From Agaricicola taiwanensis (GTDB lineage: Bacteria > Pseudomonadota > Alphaproteobacteria > Rhizobiales > Methylopilaceae): a DNA stretch of 64,000 nt. The stretch spans positions 806,001 through 870,000 of the forward strand of contig NZ_BMCP01000001.1 in assembly GCF_014635245.1 (NCBI RefSeq), written 5' to 3'. How positions within the stretch are numbered: position 1 is the first letter of the stretch; every line of letters begins with the position of its first letter. A model generated the notes under the pieces. It saw only the letters and a list, made by a program, of their open reading frames with translations, was not told the origin of the DNA and searched no databases. Made by a program: the position numbers and the translations under genes. Positions 2,268-14,003 of this stretch are shown here, one piece after another.

Positions 2268-4298
2268 CTATGCCGCCGCAACCGGCACTTGCCGCCACGC
2301 GACGATGTGGCGCGCGAGCACCGGCAGCGCCACAACGAGGCCGATCAGCGTGGAATAGAGCTCCGGCGCCACCATCAGAAGGGCTGCGATGCTGAGCACC
2401 CAGCGTTCCCAGTGTTTGGTGTCCACCAGCAGGTGCCCGGCGAAGGCGGCGGACAGGCACAGGATGCCCGCCACGGCGCCGAACAATCCGAGGAAGAAGC
2501 CGCTCCAGGAAAAGCCTTCGACCATGATGAGAAGCGAGGGCGAGAACACGAAGACGAAAGGCACCAGAACCTTGCCGATGCCGAGCCGGAAGGCGGTGTT
2601 GCCGGCGCGGAACGGATCGGCACCCGCCATGCCGGCCGCGGCATAGGCCGCAAGGGCCACCGGTGGGGTGATGTCGGCAAGCAGGCCGTAATAGAAGACG
2701 AAGAAATGCGCCACGATCGGCTGCACGCCCAGAAGCACCAGTGCGGGCGCAGCAATCGTCACCATGATGATGTAGTTCGCCGTGGTGGGAATGCCGCAGC
2801 CCATCAGGATGCAGACAATGCCGGTCATGATCAGCGTGAAGAGCAGCGTCAGCGTTCCCTGGTCGCCGAGGAACGCCGGCAACCATGACGTCGTCCAGAG
2901 AGCGAGGTCGTTGGCTGTTCCCGTCACGATGAAGGACAGTTTGAAGCCGACGCCGGTGAGGGTCACGACGCCTACCACGATGCCGACCGTCGCGGCCGCC
3001 GCACCAACGGCAAGGGCATATTTGGCGCCATCGCGGAACGCGACGAACAGATCCATCAGGCTCATGCGGCGGCGCGGATTGAGGAAGCCGACGGCGATGC
3101 AGAGCGTGATGCCCCAGAAGGCGGCGAGATAGGGCGTGTATCCCATGACCAGGATGGTGACGAGCGCGATCAGCGGGATCACCGTCGGCCAGTCGGTCTT
3201 GATGACCTCGCGGAGGTTTGGCAGCTCATCGCGGCGCAGGCCCCGCAGGCCCCGTTTCTTTGCTTCGAAATGTACCTGACAGAGGACGCCGAAGAAGTGC
3301 ATGCACGCCGGGACGATGGCCGCCACGATGATGCTCTGATACGGCACGCCCAGGAACTCGATCATCAGGAAGGCCGCGGCTCCCATGATCGGCGGCGTGA
3401 TCTGGCCGCCGGTGGATGAGGTCGCCTCCACGGCGGCGGCGATGTGCTTGGGGTAGCCCAGGCGGATCATCGCCGGGATCGTCAGCGATCCCACCGTTAC
3501 CGTATTGGCGATCGATGAGCCGGAAATCATGCCGAAGAGCGCCGAGCCGAAGATCGAAACCTTGGCGGGGCCGCCGGCGTAGCGCCCAGCCACCCAGGAT
3601 GCGACGTCGATGAAGAGCTGGCCGAGCCCGATCCGGGTCGCCAGCACGCCAAACAGCACGAAGTGGAAGACATAGGTAGCGACGACGCCGAGCGCGACAC
3701 CGTAGACGCCCTGGCTGGTGAGGTAGAGATGATTGATCAGGTTGGAAAAGGACGAGCCGGGGTGAACCAGGACACCCGGAGCATAGCGCCCGAACAGCGC
3801 ATAGGCCATGAAGATCATGGCGATGATCGGCAGGGGCCAGCCGATTGAACGGCGCGTGGCCTCCAGCAGGATGACGATCAGCGCTCCGCCCAACACCACA
3901 TCGGTCGTGTTCGGGTTGCCGACGCGGAACGCGATTTCCTGGAAGGTGAAGGGGACATAAAGCACGGCAACCACCGCCACGGCGGCAAGAAGCCAGTCGA
4001 TCAGGGGTATGCCGAGCGGCCTCAGGGCACTTCCGGCAAGAGAGCCGTCGTAGCCGCCCTTGGCCATGGGAAAGACAAGGAAGATCAGCCCCAGCACGAA
4101 GGCGAGATGGATGCCGCGATGGGTGACTTCCTGCAGGAGGCCGAAGCCAGCCGTGTAATAGTGGAACAGGGATAAGGCGACGAGCAGCACGCCCACAAGC
4201 TGGGTCGCCACAGGGCCGAGCTTCCGGAAGCGCACCTCCGAATCGAATTTTTCCTCAAGCGCCTGCGCCTTGGCTTCATCGAGCTCGACACGCGTCAT
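2268..4298 (-). CDS. TRAP transporter fused permease (4TM/12TM, TAXI type)
   Basis: This is a roughly 676-residue inner-membrane TRAP permease in which the small DctQ-like and large DctM-like subunits are fused, the arrangement typical of TAXI-TRAP systems. It uses an ion gradient to import organic acids delivered by the binding protein encoded just upstream. Membrane segments run throughout. The DctM core is visible in GMISGSSIANTVTVGSLTIPAM and EATSSTGGQITPPIMGAAAF, and again in GCGIPTTANYIIMVTIAAPA. The chosen ATG at 4298 has AGGGGA upstream; an in-frame TTG at 4331 lacks a ribosome site. The substrate is unknown. Confidence 0.93.
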   Translation of the reverse strand: MTRVELDEAKAQALEEKFDSEVRFRKLGPVATQLVGVLLVALSLFHYYTAGFGLLQEVTHRGIHLAFVLGLIFLVFPMAKGGYDGSLAGSALRPLGIPLIDWLLAAVAVVAVLYVPFTFQEIAFRVGNPNTTDVVLGGALIVILLEATRRSIGWPLPIIAMIFMAYALFGRYAPGVLVHPGSSFSNLINHLYLTSQGVYGVALGVVATYVFHFVLFGVLATRIGLGQLFIDVASWVAGRYAGGPAKVSIFGSALFGMISGSSIANTVTVGSLTIPAMIRLGYPKHIAAAVEATSSTGGQITPPIMGAAAFLMIEFLGVPYQSIIVAAIVPACMHFFGVLCQVHFEAKKRGLRGLRRDELPNLREVIKTDWPTVIPLIALVTILVMGYTPYLAAFWGITLCIAVGFLNPRRRMSLMDLFVAFRDGAKYALAVGAAAATVGIVVGVVTLTGVGFKLSFIVTGTANDLALWTTSWLPAFLGDQGTLTLLFTLIMTGIVCILMGCGIPTTANYIIMVTIAAPALVLLGVQPIVAHFFVFYYGLLADITPPVALAAYAAAGMAGADPFRAGNTAFRLGIGKVLVPFVFVFSPSLLIMVEGFSWSGFFLGLFGAVAGILCLSAAFAGHLLVDTKHWERWVLSIAALLMVAPELYSTLIGLVVALPVLARHIVAWRQVPVAAA

Positions 4299-4405: not shown

Positions 4406-5422
4406 TCACTTCAGAAGGCCGGCTTCCTTGTAGAACTTCTCCGCGCCGGCGTGCAGCGGCACACCAAGGCCCTGCAGGGCGGTATCGGTTTTGATCGCCT
4501 TGCCCTTGGCATGGCCGCTGTCGAGCAGCTTGCGAGTATTGTCGTTCCACAGCGCTTTGGTGATGCCGTAGATGAGCTCATCCGGCTGGCTGGCGCTGGT
4601 CACCCACTGGGCATTGACCGAAATGGTCTCCACCTGGCCGACGCCCTTGTAGGTGTCCGCCGGCACCGTGTCCTTGGCGAAGAACTTGTATTCACCGAGG
4701 ATCTTTTCCGCTTCGGGACCGGAGATGGGCACAAGATCGATGCCGCTGGAACTGGCAAGCTCGGCAATCGCGCCGGCCGGATAGCCGCCGACGAAGAAGA
4801 AAGCGTCCATGCCGCCATCGCGCATGCGCTCGCCGGCCTGGTTCGGCTTCAGATATTCCGCCTCGACATCCTTTTCCGTCAGACCATAAGCGGCGAGGAT
4901 CAGCTTCGCATCGACCAGTGTGCCCGATCCCGGCTCATCGAGCGAGACGCGCTTTCCCTTCAAATCCGCCACGGACTTGATGTTCGCGCCTTTGCGGGCG
5001 ACCAGATGAATGGTCTCGGGATAGAGATTGGCGATCACACGAAGGTTTTCCACCTTGGGTTTGCCTTCGTAGACGCCGGTGCCCGTATAGGCCCAGAAGG
5101 CGACGTCCGATTGGGTAAAGCCTGACTCCAGCGAGCCGCCCTGAATGGCGTTGATATTGCCGACCGAGCCGTTGGACGCGACCGCGGTTGCGATCAGGCC
5201 TTCGACACCGCAGGCGCCGCCATCGGCACAGGAGCGGCTTCCAGGCGGGCTTGATATGGCGTTGGCGAGCAGGCCGCCGATTGGAAAATAGGTGCCAGCG
5301 GTGCCGCCGGTGCCGATGCGGAAGAACTGCATCTGCTGGCCCACCGCAGCTGTGGCCACGGCAGCGGCGCCGAAGAGGGCCGCGCCTGCCGCCAGGCGTT
5401 TCATCGTCGTCAACATGCTCAT
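4406..5422 (-). CDS. TAXI family TRAP solute-binding protein
   Basis: This is a secreted periplasmic receptor of 338 residues for the adjacent fused TRAP permease. A signal peptide (MKRLAAGAALFGAAAVATAA) is followed by the TAXI-family opening FRIGTGGTAGTYFPIGG and later TQSDVAFWAYTGTGVYEG. VSLDEPGSGT and DAFFFVGGYPAGAI lie in the mature lobes. The ATG at 5422 is preceded by CAGGAG at 7 nt; the frame stays open to 5551 but without a plausible start. The gene is divergent from the GntR regulator and shares an operator-like palindrome with it. TAXI proteins bind organic acids such as glutamate or oxoacids; the ligand here is not evident. Confidence 0.93.
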   Translation of the reverse strand: MSMLTTMKRLAAGAALFGAAAVATAAVGQQMQFFRIGTGGTAGTYFPIGGLLANAISSPPGSRSCADGGACGVEGLIATAVASNGSVGNINAIQGGSLESGFTQSDVAFWAYTGTGVYEGKPKVENLRVIANLYPETIHLVARKGANIKSVADLKGKRVSLDEPGSGTLVDAKLILAAYGLTEKDVEAEYLKPNQAGERMRDGGMDAFFFVGGYPAGAIAELASSSGIDLVPISGPEAEKILGEYKFFAKDTVPADTYKGVGQVETISVNAQWVTSASQPDELIYGITKALWNDNTRKLLDSGHAKGKAIKTDTALQGLGVPLHAGAEKFYKEAGLLK

Positions 5423-5550
5423 CTGGAAGCTCCTGCCTGTTTCCGGTCTTGGGGCCGGTCGGTTCAGTATGAGCTGATGCTGACACGGTATTGCCATATG
5501 GATCAACAGCCGCAGATGAGCCACTTCGGCTGGCCAATTGCGGACAAACA

Positions 5551-5570
5551 TGTCGACATTATAGATATCT
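5551..5570. promoter_or_regulatory. Predicted GntR operator, site C (TAXI/gntR intergenic)
   Basis: TGTCGACATTATAGATATCT matches site A (6499-6518) at 15 of 20 positions. It lies in the divergent region between the TAXI binding protein and the GntR regulator. On the minus strand it contains a perfect TATAAT (5563 down to 5558), so a bound regulator would cover a likely -10 box of the transporter operon, although no good -35 is visible. Assignment to the neighbouring regulator is an inference. Confidence 0.5.
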
Positions 5571-5641
5571 GTTACATGAGTTGGCTCGGAGCGAGCGGCT
5601 CGCTAGAAGCAGCCGTGCGCTGCCGCTGACGGAATAACTCT

Positions 5642-6358
5642 ATGACCACGAGAACCAACGACATCGAAGCTCCTCAAAACAGCGGAGCGGAGGCCTCAAC
5701 CAACGGGGCTCGTGGTGGCATCATGGAAATCATCGCCCAGTTGCGCGAAATGATCGTCGCGGGCCGGCTCATGCCCCACGAACGCTTGATCGAAGCTGAT
5801 CTCGCGGCGTCGCTGCACACCAACAGGACGAACATCCGCACTGCTTTCGCGGTGCTCGAAGGCGAGGGCCTCGTCGTCCGCGAACCGAACCGCGGCGCTC
5901 GCGTGCGCAACATTTCGGAAGACGAAGCGATCGAGATCGCCGAGGCACGACAGGTGCTGGAGGGGCTGGTCGCGAAAAAGGCGGCGCAACGCGCAACCCC
6001 CGAAAACTGCAGGCCGTTGCAGGACACCATCGAGGCAATGCAGGCCGAGTATGAGACGGGAAATCTCCTGGCGATGTCCCATCTGAACGGGCGACTGCAC
6101 AGCCAGATACTCGAGATGGCGGATAATCGCACGCTGACAAAGCTGATCATGAATCTCAAGCATCAGCTGGTGCGGATTCAGTATCGGGCGATCCTGATGC
6201 CGGATCGCGCAGCTCAGTCGCTCAAGGAGCACAAGCGCATCGTCGCGGCGATCGTTTCACGCTCGGAACAGGAGGCGGAGGCGGCCATGCGCGACCACCT
6301 CAGTTCGGTTCTGGAAAATCTGCAGAAATCTTTCGAGATGACGCACTCCTTCGCTTAG
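5642..6358 (+). CDS. GntR family transcriptional regulator (FCD/FadR subfamily)
   Basis: This is a 238-residue regulator. A winged-helix GntR domain occupies about residues 25-95 (LREMIVAGRLMPHERLIEADLAASL, then EGEGLVVREPNRGARVRNIS). An all-helical FCD ligand-binding domain fills the rest (EIAEARQVLEGLVAKKAA, then HLNGRLHSQILEMADN). FCD regulators usually sense a small organic acid of the pathway they control. It sits between the TAXI-TRAP genes (divergent) and the ThDP enzyme operon (same strand). It is the obvious candidate to bind the palindrome repeated at 5551, 6499 and 12808, and therefore to govern the whole island. Confidence 0.93.
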   Translation: MTTRTNDIEAPQNSGAEASTNGARGGIMEIIAQLREMIVAGRLMPHERLIEADLAASLHTNRTNIRTAFAVLEGEGLVVREPNRGARVRNISEDEAIEIAEARQVLEGLVAKKAAQRATPENCRPLQDTIEAMQAEYETGNLLAMSHLNGRLHSQILEMADNRTLTKLIMNLKHQLVRIQYRAILMPDRAAQSLKEHKRIVAAIVSRSEQEAEAAMRDHLSSVLENLQKSFEMTHSFA

Positions 6359-6441
6359 TCGCGGTTCGAACTTCCGTCGAGCTGAGTTCTGCGCATTCAG
6401 CATGGCTTTCGGTTTCTGACCCGCCGCGGCCTGGTTCCAAA

Positions 6442-6458
6442 GAGCTGGGCCCCAGCTC
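6442..6458 (+). terminator. Possible weak hairpin after gntR
   Basis: GAGCTGGG and CCCAGCTC are inverted around a single C, so only about six pairs can form around a tight loop. No T-run follows. It lies 84 bp past the gntR stop and upstream of the promoter of the ThDP gene. Confidence 0.25.
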
Positions 6459-6498
6459 GCATGAACAGGCTGGGATCACAAGCTTCGCTTCTTGAGAT

Positions 6499-6541
6499 TG
6501 TCAACAATATAGTTGACTGGCTTGTCGGCATCGGATGTGAT
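6499..6541 (+). promoter_or_regulatory. Predicted promoter and operator, site A, of the ThDP-SBP-SDR operon
   Basis: The 20-bp near-palindrome TGTCAACAATATAGTTGACT (6499-6518) has perfect 6-bp arms GTCAAC/GTTGAC. Its right arm supplies TTGACT as a -35 element (6513-6518). After exactly 17 bp comes TGTGAT (6536-6541), matching four of six -10 positions. This predicts a start of transcription near 6548 and an 80-nt leader. A protein bound to the palindrome would block the -35, which fits repression by the upstream GntR protein. The same layout is found at site B (12808-12827). Confidence 0.6.
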
Positions 6542-6627
6542 TGGCTCCTGATCAGGCTTCGCAGCCTTTTGAACGCCGGCGAAATCGCCGCACAGCAAAG
6601 CAATTTCCAGGGCAGGACAGGTGAACC

Positions 6628-8304
6628 ATGAGCGGCTCAAAAATTTACAAGCTTCTTGCCGAGGCCTTTTTCCTTGAAGGTGTCGATACACACTTCACCC
6701 TGATGGGTGACGGCAACATGCATTGGGTGTCCACCCTTGCCGGCTATCAGGGCGTCCGGACGATTTATGTCCGGCATGAGCATTGTGCCTGCGCGGCAGC
6801 GTCCGCCTATGCCACAGCCACCGGAAAGGTGGGCGTTGCCTCGGTCACCTGCGGTCCAGGCCTCACTCAGCTCTCCACCGCGCTCGCAACGGCGGTCCGC
6901 GCGCGCATTCCGCTGGTGGTTTTTGCCGGCGAGAGCCCGTTGAATATGTCCTGGTATAATCAGGAGATCGACCAGGGCCCGATCGTTACGGCCACCGGTG
7001 CCCATTACATCCAGGCGCACAGCCTGCCCCGTATGCTGGAATATGTGCGCAACGCCTTTTTCATCGCGCGCATGGAACAGCGCCCGGTCGTGCTCGGCGT
7101 CCCCTATGATCTTCAGAAGCAGCTTCTGGAGCCCTCCAAGCCCTACGTTCCCTCGACCGAGTTCATCCCGGACACGGGCCGCATGGTGCCCAATCCCGCA
7201 TTCGTTGAGCGCGCGGCGGATCGAGTGGCGCAGGCCAAGCGCATCATCGTCATCGCCGGGCGTGGCGCGAAAAAGGCCGGGGCGCAGGAGGCGTGCCGGA
7301 AACTTGCCGGCATGGTGGACGCGCTGCTGGCAACCACGCTGCCGGTTCGCGGCCTGTTCGACGAGGACGAGTTCTCGCTCGGCGTCGCCGGCGGCTTCTC
7401 ATCGGAGGTCGCGCGCGAGAAGTTCGACGAATGCGACCTGGTCATCTCCGTTGGCGCCAGCATGACCCATCACACGGTCGATGGCGGAAAGCTGTTTCCC
7501 AATGCGGATGTGATCCAGATTGACTGTGACCCGGCCGGCATCCGCCAGGGCCTGAAGGTGGCCGACCTTTACGTGCGCGCCGACGCGAAAGCCGGTGTCG
7601 AGGCGCTCATCTCAGCCGTTGAAGCGCGCAAGGGTACGCGCGAGGCGTCGTGGCGCACCCCGGAGCTGGCACGTCGGATCATCGAGGAGCCGTCGGACAG
7701 TGAAAGCTTCCCGGAACAAAAGGGAATGCTGGATCCGCGGGACGCGATCGCAGCCCTCAACCGGGTCATTCCGAAAGACTGGGAGATCGTCAACTCCTCC
7801 GGGCATTGCTCGTTCTATCCGGCACAGATGCGCGGCCGCAGCGCGGAGCGCTTCCTGGTGATCCGGGAGTTCGGTGCAATCGGGAATGGCGTATCCTATG
7901 CCATTGGCATGGCGGCGGCCAAACCTGAAAAGACGATCGTTCTCATCGACGGCGATGGCAGCTTTTACATGCATGTCCAGGAGCTGGAGACGATCCGGCG
8001 GCACAATCTGCGCATTCTGATCTGTGTGCTGAACGATGGCGCGTTCGGCGCCGAAATACACAAGCTGCGATCGGATGGTATCGACGACAGCGGCTCCACC
8101 TTCGGCCGTGGCGACCTCGGCAAGCTCGCGCAGGGGTTTGGCCTTCGTGGATCCACCATCACCTCGCCCGACCAATTCGCCGAACGGCTCGAAGGCTTCA
8201 AGGGCGGCGCCGGCAGCGAAATCTGGGACATCCATGTCTCCGATCTCGTCATGTCTCCGGTCATGCGCCGCGCAGTGAAGAAGAAAATGGCGCCTGCAAA
8301 ATAA
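6628..8304 (+). CDS. ThDP-dependent enzyme, acetolactate synthase-like (copy 1)
   Basis: This 558-residue protein has the three-domain acetolactate synthase/decarboxylase architecture. It shows the catalytic cofactor-activating glutamate at about residue 51 (VRHEHCACAAAS), a central domain with VIAGRGAKKAGAQEA, and the ThDP-Mg motif GDGSFYMHVQELE near residue 442 ending in VLNDGAFGAE. It should make or break a C-C bond next to a carbonyl, for example by decarboxylating or condensing a 2-oxo acid, but the substrate cannot be named. The ribosome site is AGGTG before ATG. It leads an operon with the binding protein and SDR. A homologue of nearly equal length lies at 11065-12738, so true biosynthetic acetolactate synthase is unlikely: there is no small subunit nearby. 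Confidence 0.9.
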   Translation: MSGSKIYKLLAEAFFLEGVDTHFTLMGDGNMHWVSTLAGYQGVRTIYVRHEHCACAAASAYATATGKVGVASVTCGPGLTQLSTALATAVRARIPLVVFAGESPLNMSWYNQEIDQGPIVTATGAHYIQAHSLPRMLEYVRNAFFIARMEQRPVVLGVPYDLQKQLLEPSKPYVPSTEFIPDTGRMVPNPAFVERAADRVAQAKRIIVIAGRGAKKAGAQEACRKLAGMVDALLATTLPVRGLFDEDEFSLGVAGGFSSEVAREKFDECDLVISVGASMTHHTVDGGKLFPNADVIQIDCDPAGIRQGLKVADLYVRADAKAGVEALISAVEARKGTREASWRTPELARRIIEEPSDSESFPEQKGMLDPRDAIAALNRVIPKDWEIVNSSGHCSFYPAQMRGRSAERFLVIREFGAIGNGVSYAIGMAAAKPEKTIVLIDGDGSFYMHVQELETIRRHNLRILICVLNDGAFGAEIHKLRSDGIDDSGSTFGRGDLGKLAQGFGLRGSTITSPDQFAERLEGFKGGAGSEIWDIHVSDLVMSPVMRRAVKKKMAPAK

Positions 8305-8352
8305 AAAAAGACGGAGTGAAGAATTCGGACAATAAAATTTGGGAGGAAACAA

Positions 8353-9438
8353 ATGACATGGCATGGCGATAACAATGCCGGCACCCTTGCTGGTGCATGG
8401 GTCAGAAAGATCACGTCTTGTGCCGTTGCGATCGCGGCAGCACTGAGCCTGAGCACGGTCACGGCCGGCGCGCAGGAGAACTGGGATGAGGTCCTCGCCG
8501 GGGCGAAGAAGGAGGGCAAGGTCGTCCTCTACAGCAACCTGCAGCCCAATGGGGTCGAGGCTTTGCTGCAGAAGTTCCGTGAGGATCATCCGGACATTGC
8601 AACGGAGCAGATCAGGCTGGGTGCTCCCCCGATGCTGGAACGCTTCGTCGCGGAATATAATTCCGGCCGGCATATCGTCGACGTCATGATCACCTATCCC
8701 GACGAGCGCCTTCTGAAGGGCATCGACGAGGAGGACTGGGCGATGACATGGACGCCGCCGGAGCTGAAGAACTTTGCCCCCGAGCATAGCCGCAAGAACC
8801 AGCTCTTCACGCTGCAGCAGGCCAGAGAGGCGATCATCTGGAATAAGAACCTGGTGACCGATGACGAAGCGCCCAAGGAATGGACGGATCTCTTCGACCC
8901 CAAATGGAAGGGCAAGATCGGCTTCAATCCGCCCTGGCGTGCGCTCGCGATCCAGCAGATCATCGCCTACTGGGAGGACGAGCTGAAGCTGGGTGATACC
9001 GCAGCCAAGCTGAAAGCGCAGGATGTCCGATTCTTCGAAGGGTCGGGCGGCATCATCCAGGCGGTTGTACGCGGCGACGTCGCGGTGGCCGAACTGACCG
9101 ACATCCCCCTTCATCCGCTCCTGGAGGATGGGGCACCGGTCGGCTTCATCTATCCCAAGTCGGGAACGACGGTGACCAATGGCGTCGGTTTCGTCGCCGC
9201 GAAGGCCCCCCACCCGAATGCCGCGAAGGTGTTTTTGAACTGGCTGATGACCGAAAAGGGCCAGGAACAGCTGCTGACCTTTGGCGGCTTGTCCGTCACC
9301 CGTACGGGAGCAAAATCGCTTGAGCACCTTCCGGCAACGACCGAGCTTCCCAAGGTCGTCGATGGCCTGAGCCTGATCGATTCAGAAAGGCAGGCCAAGA
9401 TCGTCAACCACTACCGGACCACATTCGGCGTCCGCTGA
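8353..9438 (+). CDS. Orphan periplasmic solute-binding protein (type 2, Fe/AfuA-like)
   Basis: This is a 361-residue extracellular binding protein. A basic N-terminus and hydrophobic stretch end near VTAGAQENW as a signal peptide. The mature part shows the family blocks WDEVLAGAKKEGKVVLYSNL, AREAIIWNKNLV, WTDLFDPKWKGKIG and GTTVTNGVGFVAAKAPHPNAAK. A strong GGAGGAAACAA precedes the ATG. Relatives deliver ferric iron, thiamine or organic anions to ABC permeases, but no ABC permease or ATPase gene is nearby. It may serve a permease encoded elsewhere. It is co-directional with the ThDP gene (48-bp gap) and the SDR gene. Confidence 0.88.
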   Translation: MTWHGDNNAGTLAGAWVRKITSCAVAIAAALSLSTVTAGAQENWDEVLAGAKKEGKVVLYSNLQPNGVEALLQKFREDHPDIATEQIRLGAPPMLERFVAEYNSGRHIVDVMITYPDERLLKGIDEEDWAMTWTPPELKNFAPEHSRKNQLFTLQQAREAIIWNKNLVTDDEAPKEWTDLFDPKWKGKIGFNPPWRALAIQQIIAYWEDELKLGDTAAKLKAQDVRFFEGSGGIIQAVVRGDVAVAELTDIPLHPLLEDGAPVGFIYPKSGTTVTNGVGFVAAKAPHPNAAKVFLNWLMTEKGQEQLLTFGGLSVTRTGAKSLEHLPATTELPKVVDGLSLIDSERQAKIVNHYRTTFGVR

Positions 9439-9452
9439 CCAGAATACCGGAG

Positions 9453-9474
9453 CGACGCGGCCTCTGCCGCGTCG
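9453..9474 (+). terminator. Intercistronic hairpin between binding protein and SDR
   Basis: CGACGCGGC and GCCGCGTCG form a perfect 9-bp stem around the loop CTCT, 15 bp past the binding-protein stop. No T-run follows, so it may stabilise the upstream mRNA or attenuate read-through into the SDR gene rather than stop transcription. Confidence 0.45.
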
Positions 9475-9519
9475 TGCTTCCCATCATCCACCATATCGAT
9501 GCAGCAAGGGAGAAGCGGG

Positions 9520-10296
9520 ATGGACATCCGGCTTGACGGACGCTCGGCCATCATCACCGGGGGCAGCAAGGGTCTCGGTTTCGCCGCGGCGCAATCGCTT
9601 GCGACCTCGGGCGCCAATGTCGCCATATTCGCGCGGCGCGCGGATGTTCTGGAGGAAGCCTGCCACAGCCTGGCCGCCACCGCGCGTGGCAAGGTCGAGG
9701 GCTTTGTCTGCGATGTCGCGAAGAAGGAGGATATCGAAGCCTCCTTCGGAAAGGTCATAGCCGCATTCGGCGCCGTCGATATCCTCCTCAACAATGCGGG
9801 ACAAGGCCGCGCCAATCACTTCGAGACCGTCACGGACGAACTCTGGCAGGCCGATTTCGACCAGAAGCTCTTCGCGGCGATCCGGCTGGCGCGGCTGGCC
9901 TGGCCCGGCATGAAGGAGCGGCGCTGGGGCCGGATCATCAATGTGCTGAACATCGGGGCCAAGGCCCCTCGCGCCGCCAGCATGCCCACCAGCGTGACCC
10001 GCGCCGCAGGCATGGCCCTGACCAAGGCCATGGCCTGGGATGGCGGACCGCACAACATTCTCGTCAACGCACTGCTGATCGGAAAGATCGTCACCGACCA
10101 GATCGCGCGCCGTCATCCCGACGACCAGGCCGGTCTTGAAAAGGAAAAGCACTCGCTCGGCTCATCCGTGCCGCTCGGCCGCATGGGTGAGGCGGCGGAA
10201 TTTGCCAACATCGCCTGTTTCCTTGCCTCCGATGCGGCATCCTACATCAACGGCACCGCGATCAACGTCGATGGCGGCCTGTCGCCGGTGGCGTGA
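9520..10296 (+). CDS. SDR family NAD(P)-dependent oxidoreductase
   Basis: This is a 258-residue short-chain dehydrogenase. The Rossmann motif is ITGGSKGLGFAAA (about residues 12-24) and NNAGQG lies near residue 90. The usual Ser-Tyr-Lys triad is not canonical: where YxxxK is expected the sequence reads PTSVTRAAGMALTK, so the tyrosine appears to be missing. The C-terminal GTAINVDGGLSPVA is typical of SDRs. The ATG at 9520 has GGGAG upstream and is preferred to 9499. It is the last gene of the ThDP-SBP-SDR operon. Its stop lies 2 bp from the stop of the convergent cupin gene. The substrate is unknown, and the altered active site suggests unusual or lost redox chemistry. Confidence 0.9.
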   Translation: MDIRLDGRSAIITGGSKGLGFAAAQSLATSGANVAIFARRADVLEEACHSLAATARGKVEGFVCDVAKKEDIEASFGKVIAAFGAVDILLNNAGQGRANHFETVTDELWQADFDQKLFAAIRLARLAWPGMKERRWGRIINVLNIGAKAPRAASMPTSVTRAAGMALTKAMAWDGGPHNILVNALLIGKIVTDQIARRHPDDQAGLEKEKHSLGSSVPLGRMGEAAEFANIACFLASDAASYINGTAINVDGGLSPVA

Positions 10297-10298
10297 CG

Positions 10299-11021
10299 TC
10301 AGTGAAGGTGCGGCCGGGGAAACTGCATCAGGATCACCTCCGCGCCTTCCCCCCCGGCCATCGCCGAAACAGAGCTGTCCGCTGCCGCGTAGATGCACCC
10401 TCTGTCCTCGATGCTCTGATCGAGGTGCTGCAGGCTTCCTCGCAGCACCAACGCGAACTGACCGCCGCCGGCGCCTTTGGCGGGAGGAAGACTTTCGCCC
10501 GCTTTCAGATGAAATAGCGTCGCCTCGAGCCCGTCCTCCTGTGCCGCGATGAGTTCAACGCGGTCTTCATCACCGGACGTCACGAGATCGGTGGGCACGA
10601 TGACCGACACCATGTGCCGGTGGTGGCCATGTTTGCGCACCAGTTCGGCGCGCTGTTCGGGCATGAAGCGTGCACCGGGATCGAAGCCGTCGCGCAGGGT
10701 GAAATAATGCAGGCCCTCTTCGCCGGAGTTGATCGGCCCATATGGCGTATAGGCGTCCGTGTAATGCACGAGGACACCATTGATCTCCCTCTTGCCGAGA
10801 TGGCCGCCGCCCCTGACCATGACCTGGAATTGGTTGGCCTGGTGGAAATGGGCTGGGATCACGGAGGAGGGATCCTGCTCGATCAGGTAACAGGTGGGCC
10901 CCTCCGGCTTTCCTGAATTCTCATCGTTGACGTAACGCGATCGAAAATAGCCGGTGCCGTTCTTGAGGGATTTGCGAATGCGGGTATCTGCGGCCTGCGC
11001 TGCCGAAATGCCGATGGTCAT
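10299..11021 (-). CDS. Cupin domain protein
   Basis: This is a 240-residue cytoplasmic protein with a cupin fold. The first cupin motif is visible as IPAHFHQANQFQVMVRGGGHL, with the histidines that usually hold a metal, and a second cupin-like half with FHLKAGESLPP and FALVLRGSLQHLD near the C-terminus suggests a bicupin. Cupins of this type are oxygenases, isomerases or ligand sensors. AGGAGG precedes the ATG. It follows the second ThDP gene on the same strand after 43 bp and is probably co-transcribed with it. The exact reaction is not recognisable. Confidence 0.85.
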   Translation of the reverse strand: MTIGISAAQAADTRIRKSLKNGTGYFRSRYVNDENSGKPEGPTCYLIEQDPSSVIPAHFHQANQFQVMVRGGGHLGKREINGVLVHYTDAYTPYGPINSGEEGLHYFTLRDGFDPGARFMPEQRAELVRKHGHHRHMVSVIVPTDLVTSGDEDRVELIAAQEDGLEATLFHLKAGESLPPAKGAGGGQFALVLRGSLQHLDQSIEDRGCIYAAADSSVSAMAGGEGAEVILMQFPRPHLH

Positions 11022-11064
11022 TCTCTTTTCCTCCTGGCGAGGGCCGAGGTTCTTCCCGTGGCCT

Positions 11065-12738
11065 TCACGGCTGGGCGACAGAGCGAAGCAGCGGCGCCCT
11101 GTTGTCTTCGCCCAAATGCTGCCGGCGATAGGGATCGCTGATGGTGCTGGGAGAGACACGGGCATCGATGACGTAAAGCCCGCCTCTGCTCAGACCCGTG
11201 GCCAGCGCGTCCTTGATCTGCTGCTCATTATCAAGCACGATGCCGTCTCCTCCGAAGGCACGCGCGACACCGACGAAGTCGGGTGATGTCCATTGGGCGA
11301 ATGCGGGATTGAGGCCCTTCTGGCGCATCTTGTGCACCTCGGCGCCGTAGCCGGCATCGTTCCAGACCAGGACGGTCAGCTGCAGTCCCTCGCGCACCAC
11401 GGTCTCCAGCTCCTGCAGATGCTGCAGCAGGCTGCCGTCGCCTTCGATGAGGACGTGAGGGCGGTTGCGCGCGGCGACGCAGGATCCGATGGCATAGGGA
11501 AGACCCTGCCCGATGGCGCCGAAATGATGGGAGAACTGCATATCGCCATCAGGCGGCAGTTCCACATACATGGCGGGGAAGGCAAAGAAGTGCCCGATGC
11601 CGCAAGTGACGAGCACCTTGTCGGGAAGGGCCGGCGACATGCGCCGCATCAGAAGCCGCGGGTCGAGGCCATCGGTCGGCGTCTCGAATGCGCCGAAGTC
11701 GGTGGCGAGCACCTCATCCGTTTCAGATGTGCGGTAGCCGCTCCGTTGCACCTGCCGCAACTCCAGTTCATGGGCAAGAGCGAGGGCCGTCGCATGGGCA
11801 TCGCCCTGCACAAAGCGGCCGGGCAGCAGCGAGATGCTTTCGGCTGAAGACCTGATGTCGACGCGGGCGATCTCCGCCTTGGGGAACATCTTGCCCCCGT
11901 CGGCGGTGTGATAGCCAAGGTCGGCGCCGAAGCTCAGAACGAAATCGGCATCGGCCATAAGCCGTTCTGCCGGCGCATTGGCAAAGCCGCCGGCGATGCC
12001 GAGATCATAGGGGTGTCCGGTGAAGAGACCCTTCGCCAGAAGGGTCGTGGCCAAAAGTGCCCCCGCGCGATCAGCGAGTTGTTCGATGGCTTTCGCGGCA
12101 TCTCTGTCCGCACCCCGGCCGGCGATGATAACCGGCCGTTCCGATGCCATGAGGGCATCGGCAAGCGTGGCGATGGCGGCCGCGTCTGGACTTGTCACCT
12201 GCTGGGGCAGAAAGGCGGTCGAGGGCACGTAATTCCACGGCCGGTCGTAGGGACGCTCGTCGATGTCGGCCGGCAGGTTGAGGACCACGGGGCAGCGATG
12301 CGTCCGTGCGATGTAAAAGGCCTCTCGCACATCCTCAAGCACGGTGTCCGGCCGGGACGGCTGTTGGAAGCGCGCGTTGCAGGCCTCAGCGAACTTCCGT
12401 TGATCGATATCCTGGTGCCTGTTCTTGCTGCCAGGAGCGATGTCGCCTGCGATCAGCACCAGCGGTGAATGACCTTTGACTGCCGCGACAAGAGACGTCG
12501 CCGTATGGGTGAGGCCCGGTCCGCGCGTCACGGTCGCGACACCCACGCCTCCCGTCACGCGTCCATGGGCCTCGGCCATGGTGACGGCCGCGGCCTCGTG
12601 CCGTGCCGCATAAAGCGTTACCCCCGGCATGCCGCCGAAAGCGGCCCAGACACCCATATTGGCATCGCCGACGAGACCGAAGATGGAATCACAGCCTTCC
12701 GCCACGACGGCTGCCGCGACGGCCTCGTAAACTTTCAT
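11065..12738 (-). CDS. ThDP-dependent enzyme, acetolactate synthase-like (copy 2)
   Basis: This 557-residue paralogue of the protein at 6628-8304 has the same architecture. The activating glutamate is at about residue 48 ([13 protein letters not shown]), [15 protein letters not shown] lies in the central domain, and the ThDP-Mg motif [13 protein letters not shown] is near residue 432 followed by [21 protein letters not shown] precedes the ATG; the open frame above it is not expressed by any visible start. It leads a two-gene minus operon with the cupin. Both copies share features such as HLQELE/HVQELE and GAEVHK/GAEIHK, so they arose by duplication or form a heteromer. The substrate is unknown. 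Confidence 0.9.
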
Positions 12739-12784
12739 GGCGCTCCTCCGGTGAGCTTCAGTTTTGTTCTTGTGCAGGCGCGAT

Positions 12785-12827
12785 ATGCCACCACGCGACC
12801 TGGCAACTGTCAACAAAACTGTCGACT
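12785..12827 (-). promoter_or_regulatory. Predicted promoter and operator, site B, of the ThDP2-cupin operon
   Basis: On the plus strand 12808-12827 reads TGTCAACAAAACTGTCGACT, a near-palindrome sharing TGTCAACAA and the final GACT with site A. Read on the minus strand it supplies a perfect -35 TTGACA (12813 down to 12808). After 17 bp comes TGGCAT (12790 down to 12785), a weak -10. The predicted start lies about 40 nt before the ATG at 12738. As at site A, the palindrome arm doubles as the -35, so the two promoters share a design. Confidence 0.55.
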
Positions 12828-12887
12828 CTCCGTAGCGCGTGCCTGCGCGCAAGGCGCCGCTTGATTGCGCCAGCGCACGGGACGACA

Positions 12888-14003
12888 ATGACAGCTGGAA
12901 AGAAGGAATTGCCGCACGTGACGATCGAACGTCCGATCCTTGGATCAGGTCCTGCACTGCCCGCCCTTGACCGGCGGTCCCGCGAAGTCTTCCGACAGAT
13001 CGTAGAGACCTATCTGGCGACCGGGGAACCGGCGGGCTCACGCAACCTGTCGCGGATGCTGCCGATGACACTGTCGCCGGCATCCGTGCGCAACGTGATG
13101 TCGGACCTGGAGGTGGCGGGGCTGATCTACGCGCCCCACACCAGCGCCGGCCGGTTGCCCACCGAGACAGGCCTTCGCTTCTTCGTGGATGCCATGCTGG
13201 AGATCGGCGACATCAACCAGGACGACCGCCGCTCCATTGAGGCGCAGGTCCGGGGCGCTCCGGGAACGCGCTCCATGGAGCAGGTGCTCACCGAGGCCTC
13301 CACCATGCTCTCGGGCCTTTCGCGCGGCGCTGGGGTCGTGGTGACGTCGAAGCAGGACCAGCGCGTCAAGCACATCGAATTCGTGCCGCTGGAGCCAACT
13401 CGCGCGCTGGTGGTGCTGGTGGGTGAGGACGGCAGCGTGGAAAACCGCGTGCTGGCGGTGCCGTCGGGACTGCCCCCCTCGGCGCTGGTTGAGGCCTCAA
13501 ATTTCCTCAATGCCCGCATGCGCGGCCACACACTCGCCGAAACGCGCGCCGAGCTTGAACGCGCACACACTTCTGCTCAGGCCGAATTGGACGCGCTCAC
13601 CGCGAAGGTGGTGGAGGCGGGGCTTGCCATCTGGTCGAACGGCGACGACGACAGGCGGCAGCTGATCGTGCGCGGGCAGGCCAATCTTCTGGAGGACCTA
13701 AAGGCCCTGGAAGATCTGGAGCGCGTGCGCCTTCTGCTGGAGGATTTGGAAGGAAAGAAGGACGTGATCGATCTTCTGGGCCGAGCCGAGAGCGCCGATG
13801 GCGTGCGCATCTTCATCGGTTCGGAGAACAAGCTTTTTTCCCTGTCCGGCTCTTCCATGATCGCGGCGCCGTTCCACGACAGCGAGCAGAAGATCGTGGG
13901 AGTGCTTGGCGTCATCGGGCCAACGCGGCTTAACTACGCGCGTATCGTGCCGATGGTGGATTATACGGCCCGTTTGGTGGGGCGCCTGCTAGGGCAAGGG
14001 TGA
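12888..14003 (+). CDS. hrcA: Heat-inducible transcription repressor HrcA
   Basis: HrcA represses chaperone operons by binding the CIRCE operator. The 371-residue product shows the winged-helix region [20 protein letters not shown], then [26 protein letters not shown] and [20 protein letters not shown]. The C-terminal domain ends with [13 protein letters not shown] and [21 protein letters not shown]. The ATG at 12888 has a weak ribosome site; a GTG at 12918 preceded by AAGGA is an alternative start. No CIRCE repeat is visible upstream, and grpE, which often follows hrcA in this group, is not adjacent: the next genes lie on the other strand. Confidence 0.95.

Follow-up and report, generated by a model that had tools for sequence, protein, structure and literature searches.

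Three short repeats lie at three promoters of a gene island in Agaricicola taiwanensis (Methylopilaceae), within a 64,000-nucleotide stretch of contig NZ_BMCP01000001.1 (positions 806,001 to 870,000; hereafter the window). The locus raises the question of whether they are the operators of the GntR-type regulator encoded among them and, if so, what the operator unit is. The regulator gene, gntR (5642 to 6358, + strand), encodes a GntR-type winged helix and an FCD domain, and its product scores above the cut-offs that place it in the FadR subfamily (PF00392, 50.4 bits, cut-off 27; PF07729, 96.7 bits, cut-off 24.3). A preliminary description of this DNA had reported a 20-bp near-palindrome at the three promoters and proposed this protein as its binder. 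The 20-mers are present letter for letter: TGTCGACATTATAGATATCT at 5551 (site A), TGTCAACAATATAGTTGACT at 6499 (site B) and TGTCAACAAAACTGTCGACT at 12808 (site C). Their shared pattern, TGTC[AG]ACA-N10-CT, is confined to these sites in the 64 kb, as is the 8-mer TGTCNACA (three occurrences). The sites also lie upstream of the genes that had been named: A serves the divergent pair of gntR and a gene for a TAXI-family solute-binding protein, B serves ThDP1, the first of two genes for thiamine-diphosphate (ThDP) enzymes, with the solute-binding protein (SBP) and SDR genes that follow it, and C serves ThDP2 and a cupin-like gene. From sequence comparisons we consider it probable (roughly 0.82) that A, B and C are operators of the GntR/FCD protein and that the island is one regulon served from three promoters. 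This reading draws on a motif learned from relatives of the regulator, a 12-bp spacing of its boxes, their concentration at the three promoters and their recurrence in relatives.

A motif learned from relatives of the regulator

From genome contigs we took 63 loci with homologues of the regulator, and enumerated all 4+4 palindromes with a gap of 0 to 3 in the upstream regions of 49 homologues, of which two belong to G004, a genome of the same family, and none to the window. The top palindrome, TTGT-N2-ACAA, occurs in 18 of the 49 upstream regions, for 1.3 expected. The motif set comprised 47 homologues with at least 40% identity, reduced to 38 by the removal of nine near-copies; the window, the genome of A. 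taiwanensis (G000) and G004 were excluded. Palindromic expectation-maximisation on the 38 non-redundant upstream regions yielded the motif ATTGTCNACAAT; the log-likelihood gain was 188.4, against 15.0 to 18.8 in five mononucleotide shuffles (six seeds each, compared with 25 for the real set). Upstream boxes scoring 10 bits or more are present in 28 of the 38 loci.

When the window was scanned with the position weight matrix (PWM) of the relatives, which gave all the scores in bits that follow for boxes and pairs, the best single box started at 6497 (22.7 bits), the third at 5537 (13.3), the fourth at 12806 (11.4) and the twentieth at 5549 (7.4). The second (23978, 14.5 bits) lies outside the island. 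The box of B is an exact ATTGTCAACAAT, which fits the FCD operator palindrome (NyGTM-N0-1-KACNy, or TKGT..ACMA), and the best box of A is ATTGCGGACAAA, where GC replaces GT on one side. A palindrome of the FCD type is found at all three promoters, with the scores of 13.3 bits at A and 11.4 at C.

Box spacing and the extent of the sites

The term near-palindrome suits B (16 of 20 self-complementary positions), C to a lesser degree (12 of 20), and A not at all (6 of 20). Given this low value for A and the recurrence of boxes at 12 bp, we rejected the crude 20-mer as a single palindrome. The data support as operator unit a phased row of short boxes, with centres 12 bp apart, rather than one 20-bp palindrome. 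Candidate array A (5537 to 5572), in the TAXI/gntR divergon, has boxes at 5537-5548 (13.3 bits) and 5549-5560 (7.4) and a weak third at 5561-5572 (-7.8); it reaches 14 bp upstream of the earlier coordinates, so that its best box falls just outside the 20-mer. Candidate array B (6497 to 6532), upstream of ThDP1, has boxes at 6497-6508 (22.7 bits, ATTGTCAACAAT), 6509-6520 (-4.2) and 6521-6532 (0.5), reaches 14 bp further downstream than described, and holds both the best single box and the best triple of the window. Candidate array C (12806 to 12829), upstream of ThDP2 and of the divergent hrcA, has boxes at 12806-12817 (11.4 bits) and 12818-12829 (3.4). The arrays are given without strand.

When box pairs at 12-bp spacing are sought in the window, the same three promoters come first, at 5537 (20.6 bits), 6497 (18.5) and 12806 (14.8), followed by 53409 (12.1) and then by a score of 5.4. 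Could this resemblance have arisen by chance, from -35 hexamers (TGTCAA being TTGACA reversed) and AT-rich intergenic DNA? The crude pattern has ten other matches in the genome, and the single-box scores of A and C are moderately rare locally (P of 0.0044 and 0.0037), as chance would allow. However, the pair scores of A, B and C were never reached in 20,000 composition-keeping shuffles of each region, and the motif comes from other organisms, where the spacing is present too. Pairs of at least 14.7 bits occur at a mean of 0.005 per simulated window (first-order, n = 200; one of the 200 with any). We regard a chance origin as very improbable. A ranking among intergenic positions carries no information for A and C, which are covered by over-long frames of the ORF caller.

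We first saw the 12-bp spacing at A, B and C and afterwards tested for it in the relatives. In the sequence around 17 exact cores, spread over 16 of the 38 loci, the matching GT..AC letters are on average most numerous at offsets +12 (2.25), +24 (2.19) and -12 (2.0); the next offset is -21 (1.76) and the others reach at most 1.47. The mean PWM scores of neighbouring boxes give z values of 6.5 at +12, 4.2 at +24 and 4.0 at -12, while offset -24 does not stand out. Offsets of +/-9 and +/-10 are likewise high (z of 3.4 to 4.8), which we read as self-overlap of the box. The combined array statistic is -13.4, against a null of -22.8 (standard deviation 0.75; 500 flank shuffles, the best at -20.2). 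Adjacent repeats at a fixed spacing, here of 12 bp, are thus present in the window and in the relatives, as in arrays of the NanR type.

Occurrence in the genome and in related bacteria

Across the 3.76 Mb of the genome, TGTC[AG]ACA-N10-CT matches 13 places, ten of them outside the island, against six for the reversed control, and we rejected the crude pattern as proof of specificity because of these 13 matches. The exact ATTGTCRACAAT occurs twice, as box 1 of B and at C2:740190, immediately ahead of a further FCD gene; box 1 of C has two mismatches to it. A pattern of a box and a GT..AC at 12 bp, with up to three mismatches and chosen post hoc so that A was kept, has 63 genome matches (strands counted apart) against four in the control. 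It had been suggested that the genome be scanned with a matrix; among these 63 places, to which the ranking is restricted, the PWM of the relatives puts B (32.2), C (19.1) and A (18.2) first. Ranks four and five score 16.7 and 16.2, and the sixth (15.8) is C on the other strand. The next ten distinct places include eight inside predicted genes and two intergenic ones (C1:1328134 and C1:1514961). Elsewhere in the genome, TGTCAACAAACCGTTGACAG, of the same box type but with centres 11 bp apart, is flanked by an SDR gene and a further FCD gntR (L132 4915, or G000:C1:156913).

The nearest relative is G004, which was left out of the motif derivation. In a tree of 28 chosen rows, its regulator L015 is the sister of the island regulator (99/99). 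Within a 19-kb locus (L139), the two top-scoring separate pairs are at 4465 (26.4 bits) and 12150 (16.1). The first precedes a gene that reads like TctC, a TctA gene (PF01970) and a gntR homologue with 47% identity; the second lies between a ThDP1 homologue (54%) and an aldehyde dehydrogenase gene (PF00171). The arrays thus recur at corresponding promoters in G004, that of the ThDP1 homologue and that of the transporter-gntR operon. In more distant genomes, arrays were not found at five ThDP1 homologues, with the exception of a single FCD-type box, ATTGTATACAAT, preceding a 56% homologue in G166 (L134). The island regulator itself was found in two of 61 genomes (its own and G004), and a search at E 1e-32 of 385 genomes of the class and 398 of the phylum, in which at most seven first-look candidates were scored per genome, returned the own copy only. 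At another G004 locus (L140 4562-4597), TCTGCTGACAAGTCTGTTGACAATCCTGTTAGTCAT precedes a different FCD gene (30%), and its boxes are again 12 bp apart.

The exact ATTGTCAACAAT has 36 matches in the 61 genomes, against four in the control. We inspected 30 loci, namely 28 of the 34 sites outside G000 and L082 and L083 of G000. Six have an FCD-coding match starting 99 to 177 bp away, 19 overlap predicted frames (five only at the 5' end of the frame) and five are intergenic without an FCD match. Since most of these contexts are not those of FCD genes, a single box is a weak predictor. No evident neighbour box at 12 bp was seen at the six FCD genes.

Aligned with FadR of E. coli, the island GntR is predicted to contact DNA through E51, A52, N61, R62, T63 and N64 (contact positions from PMC4494728), a set close to the E-A/T-N-R-A-N/H of relatives with an exact ATTGTCAACAAT. 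Among the tabulated homologues, near-copies included, exact ATTGTC[AG]ACAAT boxes have a CA centre in 8 of 8 cases with Asn at alignment position 37 (N61 of the island GntR) and a CG centre in 8 of 8 cases with Gly; in nine more rows Asn-37 occurs without an exact box. One well-supported branch in the tree of 28 chosen rows separates the CA group from the CG group. Because this covariation amounts to a single split of the tree, a recognition code is only suggestive, and we rejected it as proven.

The same core box before two other FCD genes of the genome makes cross-recognition possible, and A, B and C might be true FCD operators that another FCD regulator reads wholly or in part, for instance that of C1:157011-157610 or C2:739414-740175, whose own boxes share ATTGTCAACAA. 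Indeed, the FCD-coding match at C1:157011 has ATTGTCAACAAA 98 bp ahead of it, the sole other exact ATTGTCAACAAT of the genome is just before the FCD gene on C2, and a TG/CA centre can also occur in relatives whose residue 37 is Ser, the residue of the C1 protein (L063, L065 and L067). Yet the second box is at 11 bp rather than 12 at C1:156913 and is lacking at C2:740190, the next FCD protein of the genome is just 31% identical to the island regulator, and all three arrays lie in an island with its own gntR, a linkage that the nearest relative repeats. We judge this alternative unlikely. The assignment to the local GntR/FCD protein is supported in that the best 12-bp pairs of the relatives' motif in the window are the three sites and G004 has arrays of its own; the single 20-bp palindrome and the original limits of the sites have been given up, and at least two other FCD genes of the genome have the same core box, so that this GntR may share the sites with other regulators.

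Several further observations weigh against the island GntR as reader of the three sites. Ten of the 38 relatives lack an upstream box that reaches 10 bits, and ahead of the gene for the nearest regulator, L015, the score is only 7.3 bits. The box next to the strong one in B is weak (-4.2 bits). With up to two mismatches, ATTGTCRACAAT is common in the genome (214 forward and 194 reverse matches, against 19 and 17 in the control), and for this reason the single box was rejected as proof of specificity. The pair at the ThDP1 promoter of G166 (13.4 bits) comes third, behind pairs of 22.4 and 17.7 in predicted frames, and four loci with more distant ThDP1 homologues (L135-L138) have no pair above 7.0. 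A consensus promoter scan finds no sigma-70 promoter at the sites, and the two FCD genes just discussed belong with these points.

Promoter elements, mechanism and significance

The claim that two of the sites double as -35 boxes was borne out for the hexamers, which are present, with B reading TTGACT-17-TGTGAT on the + strand and C reading TTGACA-17-TGGCAT on the - strand; the -10 elements are poor (4/6 and 3/6). The TATAAT on the minus strand within A was confirmed by eye. In B the -35-like hexamer belongs to box 2 and in C to box 1; the TATAAT of A spans boxes 2 and 3. In six relatives (L018, L021, L037, L043, L064 and L066), TTGAC starts exactly 18 bp before TTGTCAACAA (by eye), so that with a 17-bp spacer the -10 of the gntR promoter would fall inside the box; B has no TTGAC 18 bp ahead of its box. 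As the promoter-like hexamers lie inside boxes, repression would be the simplest mode of action. Alternatively, the GntR may activate some of the three promoters, given that the boxes of B and C sit where a -35-proximal activator could touch polymerase. Activator-dependent promoters likewise have weak -35 and -10 matches, and in B the -35-like hexamer lies downstream of the strongest box. The layout of the six relatives argues against activation, and PrpR of Pseudomonas aeruginosa, an FCD regulator with the same 12-nt motif, is a repressor (PMC9765439). Activation is the less probable mode.

From these comparisons we infer protein binding, cooperativity, repression and a ligand for the island GntR. 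Each operator would consist of FCD boxes of 8-12 bp (ATTGTCNACAAT), some strong and others degenerate, whose centres follow one another every 12 bp. Dimers of the FCD protein would probably settle on one strong box and thereby help binding at its neighbours; the dimers would then cover the core promoter and repress it. Relief might come when a small carboxylate or organic acid of the pathway enters the FCD pocket and the dimers leave.

The genes under this putative control begin with those for a TRAP fused permease (2268 to 4298, - strand; TIGR02123, 730 bits) and the TAXI-family TRAP solute-binding protein (4406 to 5422, - strand; TIGR02122, 339 bits). Beyond gntR, on the + strand, come the acetolactate-synthase-like enzyme ThDP1 (6628 to 8304; PF02776, PF00205 and PF02775), which reaches no NCBIfam cut-off among the matches listed (25 of 54), the ABC-type SBP (8353 to 9438; PF13416 and PF13343) and the SDR oxidoreductase (9520 to 10296; PF13561). 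On the - strand are the cupin-like protein (10299 to 11021), with PF12973 at 25.3 bits, under its cut-off of 27, with no curated Pfam or NCBIfam cut-off reached and no significant PDB sequence relative, and ThDP2 (11065 to 12738; PF02775, PF02776 and PF00205). Array C is also about 60 bp upstream of the candidate start of hrcA, which runs in the opposite direction (ATG at 12888; region 12806-12888), and the GntR regulator might touch hrcA transcription from there. A paralogue of ThDP1 (51-52%) is encoded at G000:C2:928078-929706 (L131 9043-10725), preceded by genes for a TctA-type transporter, a CoA-transferase and an HpcH/HpaI protein. At that locus a single 13.1-bit box (L131 7048) lies across the beginning of the first transporter gene; no strong 12-bp partner is among the pairs listed.

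Operators of this FCD type have been published, as have additional boxes at 7-12 nt, and the island presents a local regulator's operator of the published kind. The following comparisons are with what the available parts of the reports describe. The FadR subfamily has a 2-nt GT..AC distance and, in 13 FadR groups, weaker extra boxes 7-12 nt from the site centre (PMC4494728), whereas the boxes here are at exactly 12 bp, plus +24 bp in relatives. PrpR (PA0797) is a GntR/FCD repressor of the 2-methylcitrate operon of the propionate pathway, with a palindrome of 12 nt, ATTGTCGACAAT, predicted ahead of its own gene, and the upstream fragment was shifted in an electrophoretic mobility shift assay (PMC9765439). 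It is like the island GntR in its FCD domain, its type of palindrome and, as a repressor of a linked carboxylate-catabolic operon, its presumed setting; it differs in a CG centre, against CA in the window's best box, and no array is mentioned for it in that part of the report. No prp genes are among the eight island genes scanned (TRAP, TAXI, GntR, ThDP, SBP, SDR, cupin-like and ThDP), so the island does not carry the neighbourhood of a PrpR orthologue. NanR of E. coli is an FCD-type repressor, several dimers of which bind cooperatively to adjacent direct GGTATA repeats by means of a 32-residue N-terminal extension (PMC8012715); in the island GntR, about 28 residues precede the GntR domain. 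Atu1419 of Agrobacterium fabrum (6z74), a VanR-group FCD repressor, binds a 10-bp palindrome, ATGTATACAT, which overlaps the -10 in two promoters (PMC7797058). Unlike the island system, it is a tetramer able to loop palindromes 190 bp apart, with a different centre and no 12-bp array. Its zinc ligands (Asn and three His) align by eye with N149, H153, H197 and H219 of the island GntR, which suggests a metal-held carboxylate as effector.

We did not find a 12-bp box array for this FCD subfamily in the open-licence papers that were searched. Tentatively, the arrays may belong to a cross-phylum FCD branch with phased operators, in which boxes at 0, +/-12 and +24 bp would carry dimers as a short filament, a strong box would nucleate binding and degenerate neighbours would tune affinity at each promoter, with the Asn or Gly of the recognition helix setting CA or CG. 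Specialists would find most of interest in the phased array and in its spread over phyla. In A. taiwanensis, a regulon of three promoters would place the TAXI-TRAP transporter and the ABC-type binding protein, together with both thiamine-diphosphate enzymes, the SDR and the cupin-like protein, under a single sensor, and the substrate of the pathway could be sought via the regulator. FCD regulators would gain a testable spacing rule of 12 bp and a candidate residue-base pairing.

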